Shown: one piece after another, positions 9,810 to 60,123 of the stretch
How positions within the stretch are numbered: the stretch's first letter is position 1
Layout: each line of letters starts with the position of its first letter
NCBI RefSeq assembly: GCF_017352215.1
Contig: NZ_CP071444.1
Location: 744,001 to 808,000 of the forward strand
DNA length: 64,000 nucleotides
Reading direction: 5' to 3'
Source: Alkalibacter rhizosphaerae
GTDB taxonomy: Bacteria; Bacillota; Clostridia; Eubacteriales; Alkalibacteraceae
The notes under the pieces: model-generated
What the model saw: only the letters and a program-made list of their open reading frames with translations
The model's database searches: none
Told to the model about the DNA's origin: nothing
Made by a program: the position numbers and the translations under genes

Positions 9810-9843
9810 GAAAGAACCTCCGTTGGATCCGACTAGTCCGACT

Positions 9844-10015
9844 AGGGACGGTTCTTTTGATTACGAACCCCCCAGTGATATAATTTTTATAAAATATGAA
9901 ACCTTACAGATAATCAACTTGTCATCCGTATGTTACCGAAATTCATTACCAATATCAACTTTTATTTCAACTTTGCTGTCGCGACAGGAATGCAATAATC
10001 AAAAGAACCGTCCCT
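9844..10015. repeat. 172-bp miniature element with 19-bp terminal inverted repeats
   Basis: agggacggttcttttgatt at 9844-9862 is repeated in exact inverse at 9997-10015. These ends are identical to those of the RAYT element at 59097-60097, but the 134 bp between hold no ORF. It looks like a non-autonomous derivative moved by the RAYT protein. It fills most of the 267-bp gap between the MFS and universal stress genes. Confidence 0.7.
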
Positions 10016-10023
10016 ATTATTCT

Positions 10024-16637: not shown

Positions 16638-16675
16638 GGGGACGGTGACTTTTTTGCAAAAAAGTCACCGTCCCC
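16638..16675. repeat. 38-bp palindrome, copy 1
   Basis: The arm ggggacggtgactttttt, a central gc and the exact reverse complement of the arm form a perfect palindrome. It lies between the divergent galE and DUF6544 genes. The core gggacggt is shared with the RAYT terminal repeat. Confidence 0.9.
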
Positions 16676-17863: not shown

Positions 17864-17901
17864 GGGGACGGTGACTTTTTTGCAAAAAAGTCACCGTCCC
17901 C
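17864..17901. repeat. 38-bp palindrome, copy 2
   Basis: This is identical to copy 1 and extends on both sides as aat...att. It lies in the 56-bp gap between the convergent DUF6544 and Ldh2-type genes, where the RNA hairpin could also end transcription. Confidence 0.9.
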
Positions 17902-22014: not shown

Positions 22015-22052
22015 GGGGACGGTGACTTTTTTGTAAAAAAGTCACCGTCCCC
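22015..22052. repeat. 38-bp palindrome, copy 3
   Basis: This is the same element with centre gt instead of gc, between uxuB and eda inside an apparent operon. The flanks extend the inverted repeat as aat...att. Confidence 0.9.
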
Positions 22053-33860: not shown

Positions 33861-33898
33861 GGGGACGGTGACTTTTTTGCAAAAAAGTCACCGTCCCC
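33861..33898. repeat. 38-bp palindrome, copy 4
   Basis: This is identical to copy 1. It lies between the divergent FadR-type and diguanylate cyclase genes, 58 bp before the latter. Confidence 0.9.
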
Positions 33899-34942: not shown

Positions 34943-34980
34943 GGGGACGGTGACTTTTTTGCAAAAAAGTCACCGTCCCC
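34943..34980. repeat. 38-bp palindrome, copy 5
   Basis: This is identical to copy 1. It starts 8 bp after the diguanylate cyclase stop, between convergent genes. Confidence 0.9.
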
Positions 34981-44065: not shown

Positions 44066-44149
44066 ATGCAAACAGAAACCGCCGCTTACTTTATGGATCA
44101 TTTGATCGTAAATCCTAGGGACGGTTCTTTTGATTCTAACTGCTTTTAA
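44066..44149 (+). pseudogene. Truncated small ORF running into a RAYT repeat
   Basis: ATG follows aaaggagtcgtcca, and a possible promoter (ttgtat, 16 bp, cataat at 44022-44049) lies upstream. The frame reads MQTETAAYFMDHLIVNP, then RDGSFDSNCF, which is encoded by and after the 19-bp repeat at 44117-44135. A good start with an ending supplied by the repeat suggests that the 3' part of an older gene was lost. No family is recognisable from 17 residues. It is divergent from the selenoprotein candidate. Confidence 0.4.
44117..44135 (+). repeat. RAYT-type 19-bp repeat, direct orientation
   Basis: Exact agggacggttcttttgatt, just past the stop of the minus-strand HD-GYP gene and inside the truncated plus-strand ORF. 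Confidence 0.9.
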
Positions 44150-46854: not shown

Positions 46855-46889
46855 AGAGCACTCATCCTTGCTTAAATTTTGTTAATTTT

Positions 46890-46907
46890 GGGACGGTTCT
46901 TTTGATT
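46890..46907 (+). repeat. RAYT-type repeat, direct orientation
   Basis: gggacggttcttttgatt (the first base of the 19-mer differs) just past the stop of the DUF1801 gene. Confidence 0.88.
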
Positions 46908-47307: not shown

Positions 47308-47338
47308 CTTACTCTTCCTTTCCTTAAAATCATAGAAA

Positions 47339-47830
47339 TCATAGGGACGGTTCTTTTGATTTCAGCTCTTTAGCCTCTTTGCCAGTTAGATGATCCACAT
47401 CGATGGCCGCGATGAGGGATCTGCCGCACCCTGCGATCTCTCTTTCCTTCTCTTCTACCGATCGATGGCCGGAGTACTTCTCCACCAATGCACGAAAGGC
47501 ATCCAGCCATTCCTCTCCTTCCGTAAACCGGGCACGACCAAATGCATGAGCACTACGGAAGTAGGAGGTGTATTCTTCGCTGACGATGGTATCTTGATCC
47601 ACCACCGCAAAAGACACCTTGGGATCTTTTTTTATGGCGTCTATCTTGTGGCCGTCTTTGGCACAATGAAAATATATTCTTCCATTATAATAAACAAAGT
47701 TCAACGGCACGGCATAGGGATAGCCGTCGTCTCCATGGCAGGCCAATACGCCGTTGCTGCAACGTTCCAATACGGCAATGATTTCCTCCACCCGCATGGC
47801 TTGTTTGATCCGTCTCATTTCCCGAAACAC
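47339..47830 (-). CDS. Pyridoxamine 5'-phosphate oxidase family flavin-binding protein
   Basis: 163 residues, split-barrel FMN fold (also the NimA-like group): GVLACHGDDGYPYAVPLNFVYYNGRIYFHCAKDGHKIDAI and VSFAVVD. The GTG start lies 5 nt after ggagggg; ATG four codons on is an alternative. The last residues (KSKEPSL) are encoded by the RAYT repeat at 47343-47361, so the natural C-terminus has been replaced or extended. Substrate and cofactor are not determinable. Confidence 0.85.
   Translation of the reverse strand: MFREMRRIKQAMRVEEIIAVLERCSNGVLACHGDDGYPYAVPLNFVYYNGRIYFHCAKDGHKIDAIKKDPKVSFAVVDQDTIVSEEYTSYFRSAHAFGRARFTEGEEWLDAFRALVEKYSGHRSVEEKEREIAGCGRSLIAAIDVDHLTGKEAKELKSKEPSL
47343..47361 (+). 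repeat. RAYT-type 19-bp repeat inside the 3' end of a gene
   Basis: Exact agggacggttcttttgatt; it encodes the final codons of the pyridoxamine-oxidase-family gene. Confidence 0.9.
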
Positions 47831-47937
47831 GAAATCCCCTCCAGTTATTGAATGAACATTATGGATTGTTCATATTTTCTTGATCCTATTATCTTTCATA
47901 ATTGATATATTGCCACTAAAACTAATATACACGAAAA

Positions 47938-47965
47938 ACGGATAAAAATCTTAATTTTTATCCGT
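47938..47965 (-). terminator. Terminator downstream of the large flavoprotein gene
   Basis: acggataaaaat and atttttatccgt form a 12-bp stem with a 4-nt loop, followed on the minus strand by tttttcg. It lies beyond the repeat at 48005. Confidence 0.7.
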
Positions 47966-48004
47966 TTCGTTCATGATGGATCTATCTTGAGTTTTTGAGG
48001 TTGT

Positions 48005-48021
48005 AATCAAAAGAACCGTCC
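48005..48021 (-). repeat. RAYT-type repeat, inverted orientation, slightly truncated
   Basis: aatcaaaagaaccgtcc lies between the flavoprotein stop and its terminator; one C of the full 19-mer is missing at the end. Confidence 0.85.
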
Positions 48022-48037
48022 TTAAATTTCTGAATTT

Positions 48038-50023
48038 CTAGATTTCCACGTTTCCGTTTTCCCGATACCCTCTCCAGACATTTTCGAAAAAGTCATCCCT
48101 TGTCGGAATAGGCCGAACGGGTCGCCAACTGCACTCTACATTTCCATCTTTCAATACGACTTCCTGGATCCGATCGGCAAATGAGCCATCCTCCAGCAAG
48201 AATCGGAATTGCTCCGGCAGCTTTTTATCCGGCAATATCCCGTAATCGGTGGAATATAAAGCACTACCCCGGCTTTGGCCACCGTCTTTCATATAATCGA
48301 CCATAGCGCTCATATACACGTATTGACTCAACAACACATCATGGAGCCGATACAACTTTTTCAAACGATTCTCCTTGTGATAGTGCACTTCTTTTGAGAA
48401 GTTTAGCAGTTCTGCTTTTGTCTCCTGAAGAGCTTCCCGGATCAATGGTTCATTTCGTATGGCAGCACCGGTCCTGCTCATTCTTTTCGTTGCCCGGTCC
48501 CACCATTCATCCAGGTTGTCTAGTGATTCGGATTTTGTTTTGGCTGCCAGTTCCATCTCTTCAAAAACAAGCTTTCGAGTGGCCGACAAAAACGCTTCCA
48601 TTTCTAGCGGCTCTCCTTGCCGATTGGCTGCAATGAAACGGGCGGCTCGCATGGAGCCGACTTGCCCTGCGTTGAGGGCGCTGCCGCCTGGTCGGTATAC
48701 TCCGTGGCTTGCACTGACTTCTCCAACTGCAAAGAATCCTTCCACATTGGTTTGCCACCAATGGTCGATGGACAATCCTCCGTTGTTGTGTTGGGCGCAC
48801 AATGCGATCTCCAGCATTTCCTTTTCCAGATCGACACCCCGCTCTCTATAAAAATCCACAGCGGGTTGGTTCATATGCATCAATCTTTCAATGGGTGTGC
48901 CAAAACATGCTCCAGCCTGCATCAAGTACTCTCGTACTTCCTCCTGAAGAGCCTCGTAATCAATAGAACCGTCCCTTTTATTACTTTTATTACGGGGATT
49001 CTCTCGAAAGTCCAGAAACACCCGCCGGCCCTTTAAAATGGTTTCCACATACACCAAAAGGTCGATGATGCTGCTTCCGTCCTGGATCTTTCGTACATCA
49101 AAGGGCCATTGGTATCCTTTTAAAAATACCTTGGAAAGCATTTCATGGTCGCTGTCAAAAAAATCGAGCAAAAACTCCCGGGGATCTTCTCCATCCTGAT
49201 CCGTAGAGACAAACTTCGGCAATACCTGCATATAAGTCCCCGATACGTTCCATCGGGGCTTTATGGATGCCAGTCCATACTGCCATTCCGTCAGATTTTT
49301 CCCCTTCACTCCAGCGCGAAAGGCGATGCCGGTGGCGCCGTAATGCCCTTTGGGATAAGCACTGTCCCCATAGATCCCTGCCGGGCCGCCGGTGGCATAG
49401 ATGACGTTTTTGCAATGGAAGGCCACATATCGTTTCGCCGGATCATCCGGTTCTGCCAGGTTCAGGCATAGAAGTCCAACGACACGATCTTCTTGGGTCA
49501 AGATCCGGATGACCTGTAGCTTGTCCAGTACCGGTATCTCCTTCTTTGCAACGGATTTTTCCAAACACTCCGTCATGACTCTGGATGTATAGGGACCGAC
49601 ACTGGTGGCCCTTTTGCTGGGATCGTGATCCGTCTTGTACCCTACGTATTCTCCGTACTTGTTTCTGGGAAAAGGCACCCCCAACTGCACCAACTTAAAA
49701 AAGCATTCTGCAGAAGCTGCCGCTTCACATAATGCCAGATCTCCGTCCACGCATTGACCTTGAAACAGCACTTCTGCCAGATCCTGCACGCTGTCTGCCG
49801 TATCTCCGGACAAAGACAGCTTGTAGTAGGTCTGCTTGTCGGACCCGGTATTTCTCGAAGTACCGGCCTTGATGTGTTCTGTCACCAGCACTACATCCTT
49901 TTGTCCACTTTGAAACAGGGTATCTGCTGCATTGAACCCGGCGGCACCGCTGCCCACCACCACAGTGTTCACGGAGATCACTTCCACGGGATGGCCCTGA
50001 TAGTTTTCCATGCTTCTTTTCAC
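48038..50023 (-). CDS. FAD-dependent oxidoreductase, fumarate reductase/AprA-like flavoprotein
   Basis: About 661 residues from GTG at 50023, placed 6 nt after gaggaggga; an ATG at 50044 precedes that site. The FAD fold is TVVVGSGAAGFNAADTLFQSG. The substrate region SDKQTYYKLS, the covalent-flavin-type HYGATGIAFRAG and the motif VGEVSASHGVYRPGGSALNAGQVGSMRAARF all match the succinate dehydrogenase/fumarate reductase flavoprotein superfamily. No signal peptide, so it is cytoplasmic. A repeat-derived segment (KRDGSIDYE) lies near residues 350-360. It is probably part of the Liv/OYE/URO-D catabolic island, oxidising or reducing its substrate. Confidence 0.82.
   Translation of the reverse strand: MKRSMENYQGHPVEVISVNTVVVGSGAAGFNAADTLFQSGQKDVVLVTEHIKAGTSRNTGSDKQTYYKLSLSGDTADSVQDLAEVLFQGQCVDGDLALCEAAASAECFFKLVQLGVPFPRNKYGEYVGYKTDHDPSKRATSVGPYTSRVMTECLEKSVAKKEIPVLDKLQVIRILTQEDRVVGLLCLNLAEPDDPAKRYVAFHCKNVIYATGGPAGIYGDSAYPKGHYGATGIAFRAGVKGKNLTEWQYGLASIKPRWNVSGTYMQVLPKFVSTDQDGEDPREFLLDFFDSDHEMLSKVFLKGYQWPFDVRKIQDGSSIIDLLVYVETILKGRRVFLDFRENPRNKSNKRDGSIDYEALQEEVREYLMQAGACFGTPIERLMHMNQPAVDFYRERGVDLEKEMLEIALCAQHNNGGLSIDHWWQTNVEGFFAVGEVSASHGVYRPGGSALNAGQVGSMRAARFIAANRQGEPLEMEAFLSATRKLVFEEMELAAKTKSESLDNLDEWWDRATKRMSRTGAAIRNEPLIREALQETKAELLNFSKEVHYHKENRLKKLYRLHDVLLSQYVYMSAMVDYMKDGGQSRGSALYSTDYGILPDKKLPEQFRFLLEDGSFADRIQEVVLKDGNVECSWRPVRPIPTRDDFFENVWRGYRENGNVEI
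48958..48976 (-). repeat. RAYT-type repeat inside the flavoprotein coding region
   Basis: aatcaatagaaccgtccct differs from the 19-mer at one base. A 9-bp tandem duplication (ttttattac, 48976-48993) abuts it. It is read in frame as KRDGSID. Confidence 0.75.
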
Positions 50024-58429: not shown

Positions 58430-59092
58430 ATGCGAAAAGAAAAAAACATGTACAAAAAAGGGATCACCACAAAAAATAATATTCTGAAAGCTTCCAAGGA
58501 GCTTTTTTACGAAAACGGATACAACAACACCACCGTGCACATGATCAAGGACCGGGCGGAAGTGTCCCTCTCCGCCATCCCCTATTACTTCAAGGAAAAG
58601 GACCGGATCCTTCAAGTCATCTACACGGATTTTCTCTCCAGCATTTACAAGCTGGTCCAAAAACACATGAAAGAGCCCATCGACAGCTACCTGCTCCACT
58701 TTCTGGCGTCGAAGATCTACTACTACATCATCCATGATGATGCCAACAACGACCGTTTCTACCGGGAAGTGACCTTCGCCCAGTCCAACATTCGCATTTT
58801 GTATCCTTTCATGGACACGGTCCATCACAACTACGCCAGGGATTTCAACATCCAACTGACGGAAGGGGAACTAAAGTACTACCGCTTGACGGACGCCGGC
58901 GGACGTCGGGAGATCATGATGGACTATTATAACGACCCGGCAAGCTACGATTTTAATGAACTCATCGACTACATCACTTCCATCGTGCCTAATCTGATGG
59001 GCATCGACAAGGAGGTCTCCAGGGAATACGCAAGAAAGTCCACCGCCTTTGCCAAGGAAGTGGACTATTCCGCCATCAAGTTTTTGGTGTAA
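58430..59092 (+). CDS. TetR family transcriptional regulator
   Basis: About 220 residues from the ATG at 58430; the frame opens further upstream but the ribosome site is unclear, and ATG at 58450 is another choice. HTH: NNTTVHMIKDRAEVSLSAIPYYFKEKDRIL. The C-terminal domain is rich in Tyr and Asp. It is divergent from the URO-D 3 operon and thus the likely repressor of the catabolic island. Its stop lies 5 bp before the RAYT element. Confidence 0.83.
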   Translation: MRKEKNMYKKGITTKNNILKASKELFYENGYNNTTVHMIKDRAEVSLSAIPYYFKEKDRILQVIYTDFLSSIYKLVQKHMKEPIDSYLLHFLASKIYYYIIHDDANNDRFYREVTFAQSNIRILYPFMDTVHHNYARDFNIQLTEGELKYYRLTDAGGRREIMMDYYNDPASYDFNELIDYITSIVPNLMGIDKEVSREYARKSTAFAKEVDYSAIKFLV

Positions 59093-59096
59093 ATCT

Positions 59097-60097
59097 AGGG
59101 ACGGTTCTTTTGATTACGCTTTCGATATGAGGGCTTGGGAAATCCCCAAGATCCTGGCCAGTTGACGTTGGTTCAACCCCTTTATGCCTTTCAATATCCG
59201 GATCATTTCATCCCGCTCCTCTTTCGGTAAGCTCTTGACCCGTGCAACACTCTTGCCCGCAAGGACCTTTTCGATTTCCAGCCTTGCCTCTTTCTCCTTG
59301 AGCTTTCTCACTTCAATATCCAGGCATTCATCCTGGTTTTCTCTTCCGTGAAATTCCTCAAACCCTTTAAGTGCTACATCCCTGCAAGTTCCAAAGGATT
59401 CGAGGATCGTCTCATCATCCAACAAATTCCCAAAATCCGTTTCCTTGCCCAAGTAGGCTCTATAACTGCTCCACTTCCATTCCAAACAGTCCTTTACAAA
59501 GCCCGCTTTTACAGGATTTTGATGGATATAGCGGATCACTGTTAGAAGATAGTGTTCATTTTCCACGCTTTCGCTTCGAAAACGATCTTGAAACAGATGC
59601 CCCGTCGTTTCATACTTTTTGTGATAGTATCCCACAAAACTCACACCGATCCTCTTCATGGCTGTGGCTAGTCCACCTTTTCCTTCTTTGATCAACAAAT
59701 GGACATGATTGTTCATCAGGCACCAACCGTATATCTGTATTCTGGTTTTCCCCTTGCACTTTCCCAGTATTTCTAAAAATCGAATCCGATCCGAATCATC
59801 ATGAAAAATCTCCTGCTTATTGGCACCCCGGATCATCACGTGATAGATCCCGCTTTTGCTCTGTTCCCTGGCAGTTCGTGGCATGGTTTGCTCTCCTTTG
59901 CTGGACTTGCCTAGTAGTCGAAATATTGTATGATATTACATCCTAATATATTGTTGTCCATTAAGTAGGAAAATCCTTTTTTATTTAGATCAGAAGCGAA
60001 AAAAACACCCCAGCTTGACCGATGGTCGAAGGTAGAGGTGATTTTTATGTGATTGGTTAGTAGCTAGGTTCAAAACGTAATCAAAAGAACCGTCCCT
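59097..60097 (-). mobile_element. RAYT element with 19-bp terminal inverted repeats
   Basis: 1001 bp bounded by agggacggttcttttgatt (59097-59115) and its exact inverse (60079-60097). Inside is one gene, a REP-associated tyrosine transposase, whose stop codon is supplied by the left repeat. The 195 bp upstream of the gene are non-coding, with A/T-rich tracts. It sits between a TetR gene and the PTS operon. The same 19-mer recurs at eight other places in this window. Confidence 0.85.
59114..59884 (-). CDS. REP-associated tyrosine transposase (RAYT, Y1_Tnp)
   Basis: 256 residues. The HUH motif is H60-V-H62 in CLMNNHVHLLI, and the catalytic Tyr is probably Y119 in VIRYIHQNPVKAG; both are RAYT hallmarks. 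A C-terminal helix-turn-helix (KGLNQRQLARILGISQALIS) is added after about 215, as in some Bacillota members. Such enzymes nick and rejoin single strands at REP-type hairpin ends. All catalytic residues are intact. The final codons SKA-stop abut the terminal repeat. Confidence 0.92.
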   Translation of the reverse strand: MPRTAREQSKSGIYHVMIRGANKQEIFHDDSDRIRFLEILGKCKGKTRIQIYGWCLMNNHVHLLIKEGKGGLATAMKRIGVSFVGYYHKKYETTGHLFQDRFRSESVENEHYLLTVIRYIHQNPVKAGFVKDCLEWKWSSYRAYLGKETDFGNLLDDETILESFGTCRDVALKGFEEFHGRENQDECLDIEVRKLKEKEARLEIEKVLAGKSVARVKSLPKEERDEMIRILKGIKGLNQRQLARILGISQALISKA

Positions 60098-60123
60098 TAG
60101 ATTACTTAGATTACTGTTCTTTA

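Follow-up and report, generated by a model that had tools for sequence, protein, structure and literature searches.

The window, i.e. the whole 64-kb stretch of Alkalibacter rhizosphaerae DNA analysed here, contains an element of about 1 kb (59097-60097) bounded by two inverted copies of the 19-mer AGGGACGGTTCTTTTGATT, with a transposase gene between them (Table 1). When up to three mismatches are allowed, this 19-mer occurs nine times in the window, that is at seven further places besides the two element ends; chance matches in 100 dinucleotide shuffles averaged 0.04 and never exceeded one. All nine sites had been listed in a preceding sequence-only reading, whose range of up to two differences narrows to 0-1 mismatch and whose position 46890 is in fact 46889. 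That reading took the 19-mer for the terminal inverted repeat. Inverted ends are present, but the repeat is longer and comprises 26 nt with 96% complementarity; the stop codon of the transposase gene is located inside it. The element end reads AGGGACGG.

The encoded protein matches Pfam Y1_Tnp (5.4e-15) and NCBIfam REP_Tyr_transpos (81.1 bits, cut-off 80). Its AlphaFold2 (AF2) model (mean pLDDT 91.8, pTM 0.74) is best matched in PDB by 4er8, the E. coli REP transposase with REP hairpin. Both the HVH motif and Tyr119 are found where the sequence-only reading had placed them. The C-terminal helix-turn-helix (HTH) is modelled with local pLDDT of about 90, and Pfam HTH_3 matches it weakly (E 0.0081, below its cut-off).

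Among the other copies in the window, one inverted pair has perfect arms. Derivation of its interior from the transposase gene was considered and rejected, as the match is confined to the ends. A Pyridox_ox_2 gene is framed by two inward-facing 19-mers (47343-48023), a layout resembling that of the transposase element. Another copy lies in a FAD_binding_2 ORF, for which no PDB relative was found at 1e-20. Tandem 9-bp copies of the outer arm accompany the repeat at 60097-60114, 9827-9844 and 47326-47343; in other hosts, e.g. L053 and L057, tandem outer-arm units are 10-13 bp long. An Rfam search of the window found no known RNA.

Table 1. Features of the element and of dispersed repeats, in window coordinates
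Feature	Position	Strand	Basis or remark
Y1/HUH transposase ORF, 256 aa, subclass 2.1 (TIRYT-like)	59114..59884	-	Pfam, NCBIfam, AF2
HVH (residues 60-62), metal-binding HUH motif	59699..59707	-	H60, H62 invariant in 48 aligned sequences
Tyr119, presumed catalytic tyrosine (YIHQNP)	59528..59530	-	invariant in alignment A2
C-terminal HTH, residues 221-255	59120..59224	-	AF2 helices 221-232, 239-246, 250-255
Predicted recognition helix, residues 250-255	59120..59137	-	AF2; 250 and 254 covary with repeat
Terminal inverted repeat, 3' side of gene	59097..59122	+	sequence search and arm comparison
Terminal inverted repeat, 5' side of gene	60072..60097	-	sequence search and arm comparison
Exact-match ends of element (19-mer)	59097, 60079	+, -	
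Outer arm GTAAATCTA	59089..59097	+	read from sequence
Outer arm TTAGATTAC, twice in tandem	60097..60114	+	read from sequence
Non-autonomous inverted pair, perfect arms of 21 bp, 132-bp interior	9843..10016	.	19-mers 9844 (+), 9997 (-)
Single 19-mer, exact, intergenic	44117..44135	+	
Single 19-mer, 1 mismatch, intergenic	46889..46907	+	
19-mer, exact, at 3' end of Pyridox_ox_2 ORF	47343..47361	+	
19-mer, 1 mismatch, facing copy at 47343	48005..48023	-	
19-mer, 1 mismatch, within 668-aa FAD_binding_2 ORF	48958..48976	-	
Second hairpin family GGGACGGTGACTTTTTTG	16639-16674, 17865-17900, 22016-22051, 33862-33897, 34944-34979		

Repeat families in the genome and in related genomes

In the genome-wide search proposed in the sequence-only reading (2,449,552 bp, one contig), GGGACGGTTCTNTTGATT was found 34 times when one mismatch was allowed, as compared to zero hits for the reversed control pattern and a zero-order expectation of 0.015. 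Half of these copies (17/34) are located within 744-850 kb, a region that makes up 4.3% of the genome and surrounds the gene (803 kb). The copies include half sites as well as inverted pairs; seven pairs face inward at 200 bp or less and span 40-170 bp. Non-autonomous inverted pairs of a short repeat are known as REPINs. The seven inverted dimers resemble them, although REPINs belong to a different repeat and transposase group from the system in the window.

When the 30 listed loci were subjected to a simple ORF test, 16 overlapped at least partly with an ORF of 150 aa or more; a large share of these ORFs may be spurious. Copies of the 18-mer with 0-1 mismatch are found in folP, mnmG and an ORF for a large membrane protein (L001, L028, L017 at 1501-1518). 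Insertion within folP and mnmG was rejected, since both proteins align gap-free to solved homologues at the site.

The sequence-only reading had named two comparisons that could refute it. Concerning abundance of the repeat where the transposase is lacking, the exact 18-mer occurs in one of the six genomes of the family and in none of the five others; in a class-wide count of 391 genomes (transposase hit defined as E <= 1e-20 to L072), at least five copies of the core GGGACGGTTCTNNTG were found in 32 of the 109 genomes with a hit vs 10 of the 282 without. Concerning occupancy of the same sites in relatives, the hairpin site at 1,640,298 lacks the core in both congeners, one of which (G001) has a different hairpin with a T run in its place.

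Two other Y1 genes are present in the genome, their products being 34% and 48% identical to the window transposase. One adjoins a fusA-like gene, likewise in both congeners. Each of the three genomes of the genus (L032, L034, L035) has a Y1 gene between fusA-like and mcsA-like genes, as if kept vertically (all gene names assigned by eye). The other extra gene sits between copies of a second hairpin family, GGGACGGTGACTTTTTTG in inverted orientation with no loop, of which there are 59 half sites genome-wide (at most two mismatches); copies of this family frame the Y1 gene at 923.6-924.4 kb. A further abundant paired family, of TGTCAC type with two different ends, was observed in genome G194, with no evident cognate among the transposases examined.

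Hairpin architecture of the repeat units

Relatives of the element were collected in three sets of Bacillota loci. Set 1 consists of the best 80 of 586 Bacillota-type loci found, 79 of which were used; sets 2 and 3 were taken later from the same phylum, set 2 including eight viral contigs, and no more than eight relatives were obtained from viral contigs. L073 (truncated) was left out from the count of flanking cores onward, and L098 (stop inside) and L112 (duplicate) were each left out of one later step. In set 1, the core faces inward on both sides of the gene in 43 loci, on one side in 15 and on neither side in 21; loci with no core near the gene thus account for 21/79 in set 1, 44/97 in set 2 and 42/109 in set 3.

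Across 306 ends of the three sets, constant GGGACGGTTCT is framed by arms that vary between lineages yet remain complementary. Perfect stems of at least 5 bp are formed in 67/101 ends of set 1, with mean stem length of 5.44 as compared to 3.08 (sd 0.11, max 3.43, 1000 permutations) when inner arms are dealt out anew among the loci. The later sets gave similar values, namely 64/88 ends and 5.61 vs 3.18 in set 2, and 87/117 ends and 5.93 vs 3.21 in set 3. Since the arms differ between lineages and still stay complementary, this comparison shows each repeat unit to be a small hairpin with constant GGGACGGTTCT tip and lineage-specific stem.

Folding as single-stranded DNA agrees with the hairpin in four of five tested ends, which beat all but 0-3 of 200 shuffles. 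Unlike these four, the 3'-side end in the window folds poorly on its own (-0.3 kcal/mol, z 0.57; 126 of 200 shuffles). The outer arm at the opposite end together with the inner arm folds at -2.5 kcal/mol (z -4.06).

Guides of IS200/IS605 elements choose cleavage sites by pairing. By analogy, the outer arm might be target DNA that was selected by pairing with the inner arm as a guide, and two observations would fit: outer arms in the own genome differ from copy to copy and yet are similar to the inner arm's complement, and tandem 9-bp outer-arm copies flank several sites. However, constancy of the inner arm is partly built in, because the search fixed it, and own-genome data are therefore no test of a guide role. 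Moreover, both arms are conserved in most listed copies of another genome (G009, Bacillus massilionigeriensis, the genome of L055), and outer arms are symmetric within an element. We regard a guide-target relationship as unlikely.

Covariation of the recognition helix with the stem

The four bases following TG in the inner arm were designated N1-N4. This rule was set after set 1 had been seen, and the helix pattern was first noticed in set 1 by eye; sets 2 and 3 were then analysed under the same rule. Loci with stems shorter than 4 bp were left out, and loci more than 90% identical were dropped (50 to 47 in set 1, 44 to 41 in set 2, 61 to 52 in set 3).

In set 1 (49 loci, 204 columns), the HTH leads the columns most informative for N1 and N2, column 254 being first for both. 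Set 2 alone (41 loci, 208 columns) has column 250 at the top for both bases (z 8.5, followed by 5.6 and 5.4). In set 3 (52 loci), column 250 leads again in the prediction of N1N2 (0.447, next 0.227). When sets 1 and 2 are joined, the top z for N2 (19.5) belongs to column 87, outside of the helix.

We further predicted N1N2 of each locus from its nearest locus according to four helix columns, barring partners with at least 50% identity in the catalytic domain; 400 random sets of four variable columns served as control. For the 88 joined loci, the helix columns are right in a fraction of 0.444, a score not attained by any of the random sets (average 0.097, max 0.216), as compared to 0.17 for the catalytic domain and 0.083 by chance. 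In set 3, they reach 0.340, again with 0/400 random sets. As the helix codons lie directly next to the 3' repeat, the test was repeated with the 5' end only, which is about 700 bp away: the helix predicts N1N2 at 0.469 from this distant end (max random 0.256) and at 0.329 from its outer arm only (max random 0.267), with 400 sets in each case. At the stricter limit of 45% identity, the score of the joined loci drops to 0.214 (reached by 1/400 random sets), and that of set 3 is 0.244 vs 0.212 for the catalytic domain (2/400). For N3 and N4, there is little or no helix signal; at the 45% limit, no tie of these two bases to the helix was found, as 159 and 246 of 400 random sets, respectively, reach the helix score.

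Could the match reflect shared ancestry only, with enzyme and repeat descending together and the helix merely being variable? The repeat type tracks the tree in part: on the catalytic tree of 88 loci, N1N2 requires 39 parsimony changes vs 61.7 when shuffled, and with no relatedness limit the catalytic domain is also predictive (0.472; set 3 0.606). On the other hand, equally variable columns elsewhere fail once close relatives are barred (0/400), residue 250 stands alone, and on the same tree N1=G needs six and N2=G nine changes. Ancestry as the sole cause therefore appears quite improbable.

Correspondence between stem and helix is summarised in Table 2. It is not a one-to-one code, because Arg250 is combined with more than one base (16 times with A, 15 with G, 8 with T and 3 with C; n=42). 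Arg and Lys mostly accompany dinucleotides that contain a G:C pair; Gln is associated with A, and hydrophobic residues are associated with T. Such residue-base pairings agree with general major-groove chemistry. Comparison of the loci shows that residues 250 and 254 of the predicted recognition helix are matched to N1 and N2, the first two base pairs that vary in the stem. Because of this covariation, the C-terminal domain may be taken as the reader of the repeat: it suggests that the small C-terminal helix recognises the variable bases in the repeat belonging to its enzyme, in keeping with the binding role that the sequence-only reading had proposed for the HTH.

Table 2. Stem dinucleotide N1N2 and helix residues in 140 loci
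Stem	Residue 250	Residue 254
TG	Phe, Ile, Leu or Val 19/19	Arg 19/19
GT or GC	Arg 15/15	
AC	Arg 16/16	
CT	Pro 14/25	Phe, Tyr or Trp 23/25
TC	Lys 22/28	
AT	Tyr or Gln 8/8	

Interpretation and relation to known systems

Taken together, we estimate the probability at roughly 0.8 that the feature in the window is a compact element of the subclass 2.1/TIRYT kind, with its gene for a single-strand HUH-Tyr transposase between inverted recognition units, in which the HTH picks the cognate stem and the Y1 domain acts on the tip. When the repeat is single-stranded, the variable stem would form a short duplex on which the HTH could dock, picking the cognate repeat, and in single-stranded DNA the constant tip, or the flank next to it, would be the site of action of the Y1 domain. 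If the HTH picks the stem, each enzyme would consequently recognise its own repeat family, and dispersed half sites and inverted pairs would represent copies mobilised, now or earlier, by the cognate enzyme. Docking, cleavage and spread are inferred here from IS200/IS605 and REP enzymes.

That the host maintains the repeats as transcription terminators or as RNA hairpins of another kind, among which the transposase merely landed, is very improbable, for although two copies (L020, L021) directly follow a stop codon with a T run and one stands at a congener's own T-run hairpin site, the majority of copies lack this layout, the repeat unit is present at either side of the transposase gene in 43/79 loci of set 1 and the stem matches the protein helix. 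Reuse of the hairpin by the host at some sites is nevertheless likely, because one T-run hairpin stands where the congener has another terminator-like hairpin.

It also seems fairly probable that a whole branch of Y1/HUH enzymes has a modular address reader, the HTH reading a covarying stem and the catalytic domain handling the constant tip, with the two parts evolving separately. If true, this branch would provide a large number of orthogonal pairs of enzyme and repeat, and recognition in single-strand DNA transposition would follow a code that can be read and perhaps programmed. The covariation offers a concrete residue-to-base table. The match between helix and stem would explain how each enzyme keeps to its own repeats and how several enzyme-repeat families coexist in one genome. 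In Bacillota, the hairpins represent a second type of repeat architecture in addition to GTAG REPs. The element itself belongs to a type already described. What is new, as far as our searches show, is its repeat architecture in Bacillota and the match between helix and repeat, since neither was found in the literature searched, most subscription papers and bioRxiv preprints lying outside the search. A literature search for the repeat letters returned nothing on such repeats, as judged by title and beginning of abstract of the papers listed.

Compared with known systems, the sequence-only reading is supported in that a Y1/HUH transposase of Bacillota is accompanied by a dispersed repeat family of its own, but the RAYT/REP system it named is not of the classical GTAG type. 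This type was rejected, as there is no GTAG at the foot and the Y-motif class is different: by eye, arms 59089-59122 and 60072-60114 contain neither GTAG nor GTGG, and a GTAG near 60060 is inside the element, away from the hairpin foot. E. coli TnpA_REP with its REP (4er8; PMC8266576) shares the catalytic fold, hairpin substrate and enzyme-repeat co-evolution; it differs by the GTAG foot, and the available text of that paper has no mention of helix-turn-helix or HTH. An IS200 element (subclass 1.1) would carry Y---Q and occur in several near-identical copies; here the motif is YIHQNP, and the other Y1 genes are as divergent as stated above.

Likeness to TIRtrons and their TIRYTs (Di Nocera et al. 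2013, PMC3733652) is closer. According to the available text, a RAYT-like gene lies there between inverted repeats unrelated to GTAG REPs, and moderately abundant repeat families occur elsewhere as dimers or clusters, as they do here. Flanking inverted repeats (26 nt) are present in our element, and so is a dispersed family (34 copies, seven inward pairs), a trait seen for some TIRYT members. The TIRYT motif GGGGWSAS, shared by some members and not defining for all, is absent, GGGACGG being found instead. The main text of that paper contains neither 'Clostrid' nor 'Firmicutes', and its available parts describe neither a hairpin with constant tip and lineage-specific stem nor any connection with an HTH.

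Subclass 2.1 of Quentin et al. 2018 (PMC6006769), regarded by its authors as the probable counterpart of the TIRYTs, comprises proteins of about 240 aa with NHVH, YIxxNP and a C-terminal HTH (Bac_DnaA_C, HTH_23 or HTH_28). In our transposase, NNHVH (H60 and H62) corresponds to NHVH or NH[YF]H, YIHQNP at 119 agrees with the class signature Y---NP and has Q where the subclass consensus (YIELNP or Y[IV]HLNP) has L, and the HTH is apparent from AF2 helices. As far as that text goes, no REP-like sequence was seen by subclass 2.1 genes, a reading of the target by the C-terminal domain was doubted and left open, and so was DNA recognition by this large class of domesticated-looking transposases, including the relation of HTH and repeat. 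The element thus resembles subclass 2.1 in NHVH, YIxxNP and the C-terminal HTH, and differs in that here covariation argues for an HTH that reads the repeat.
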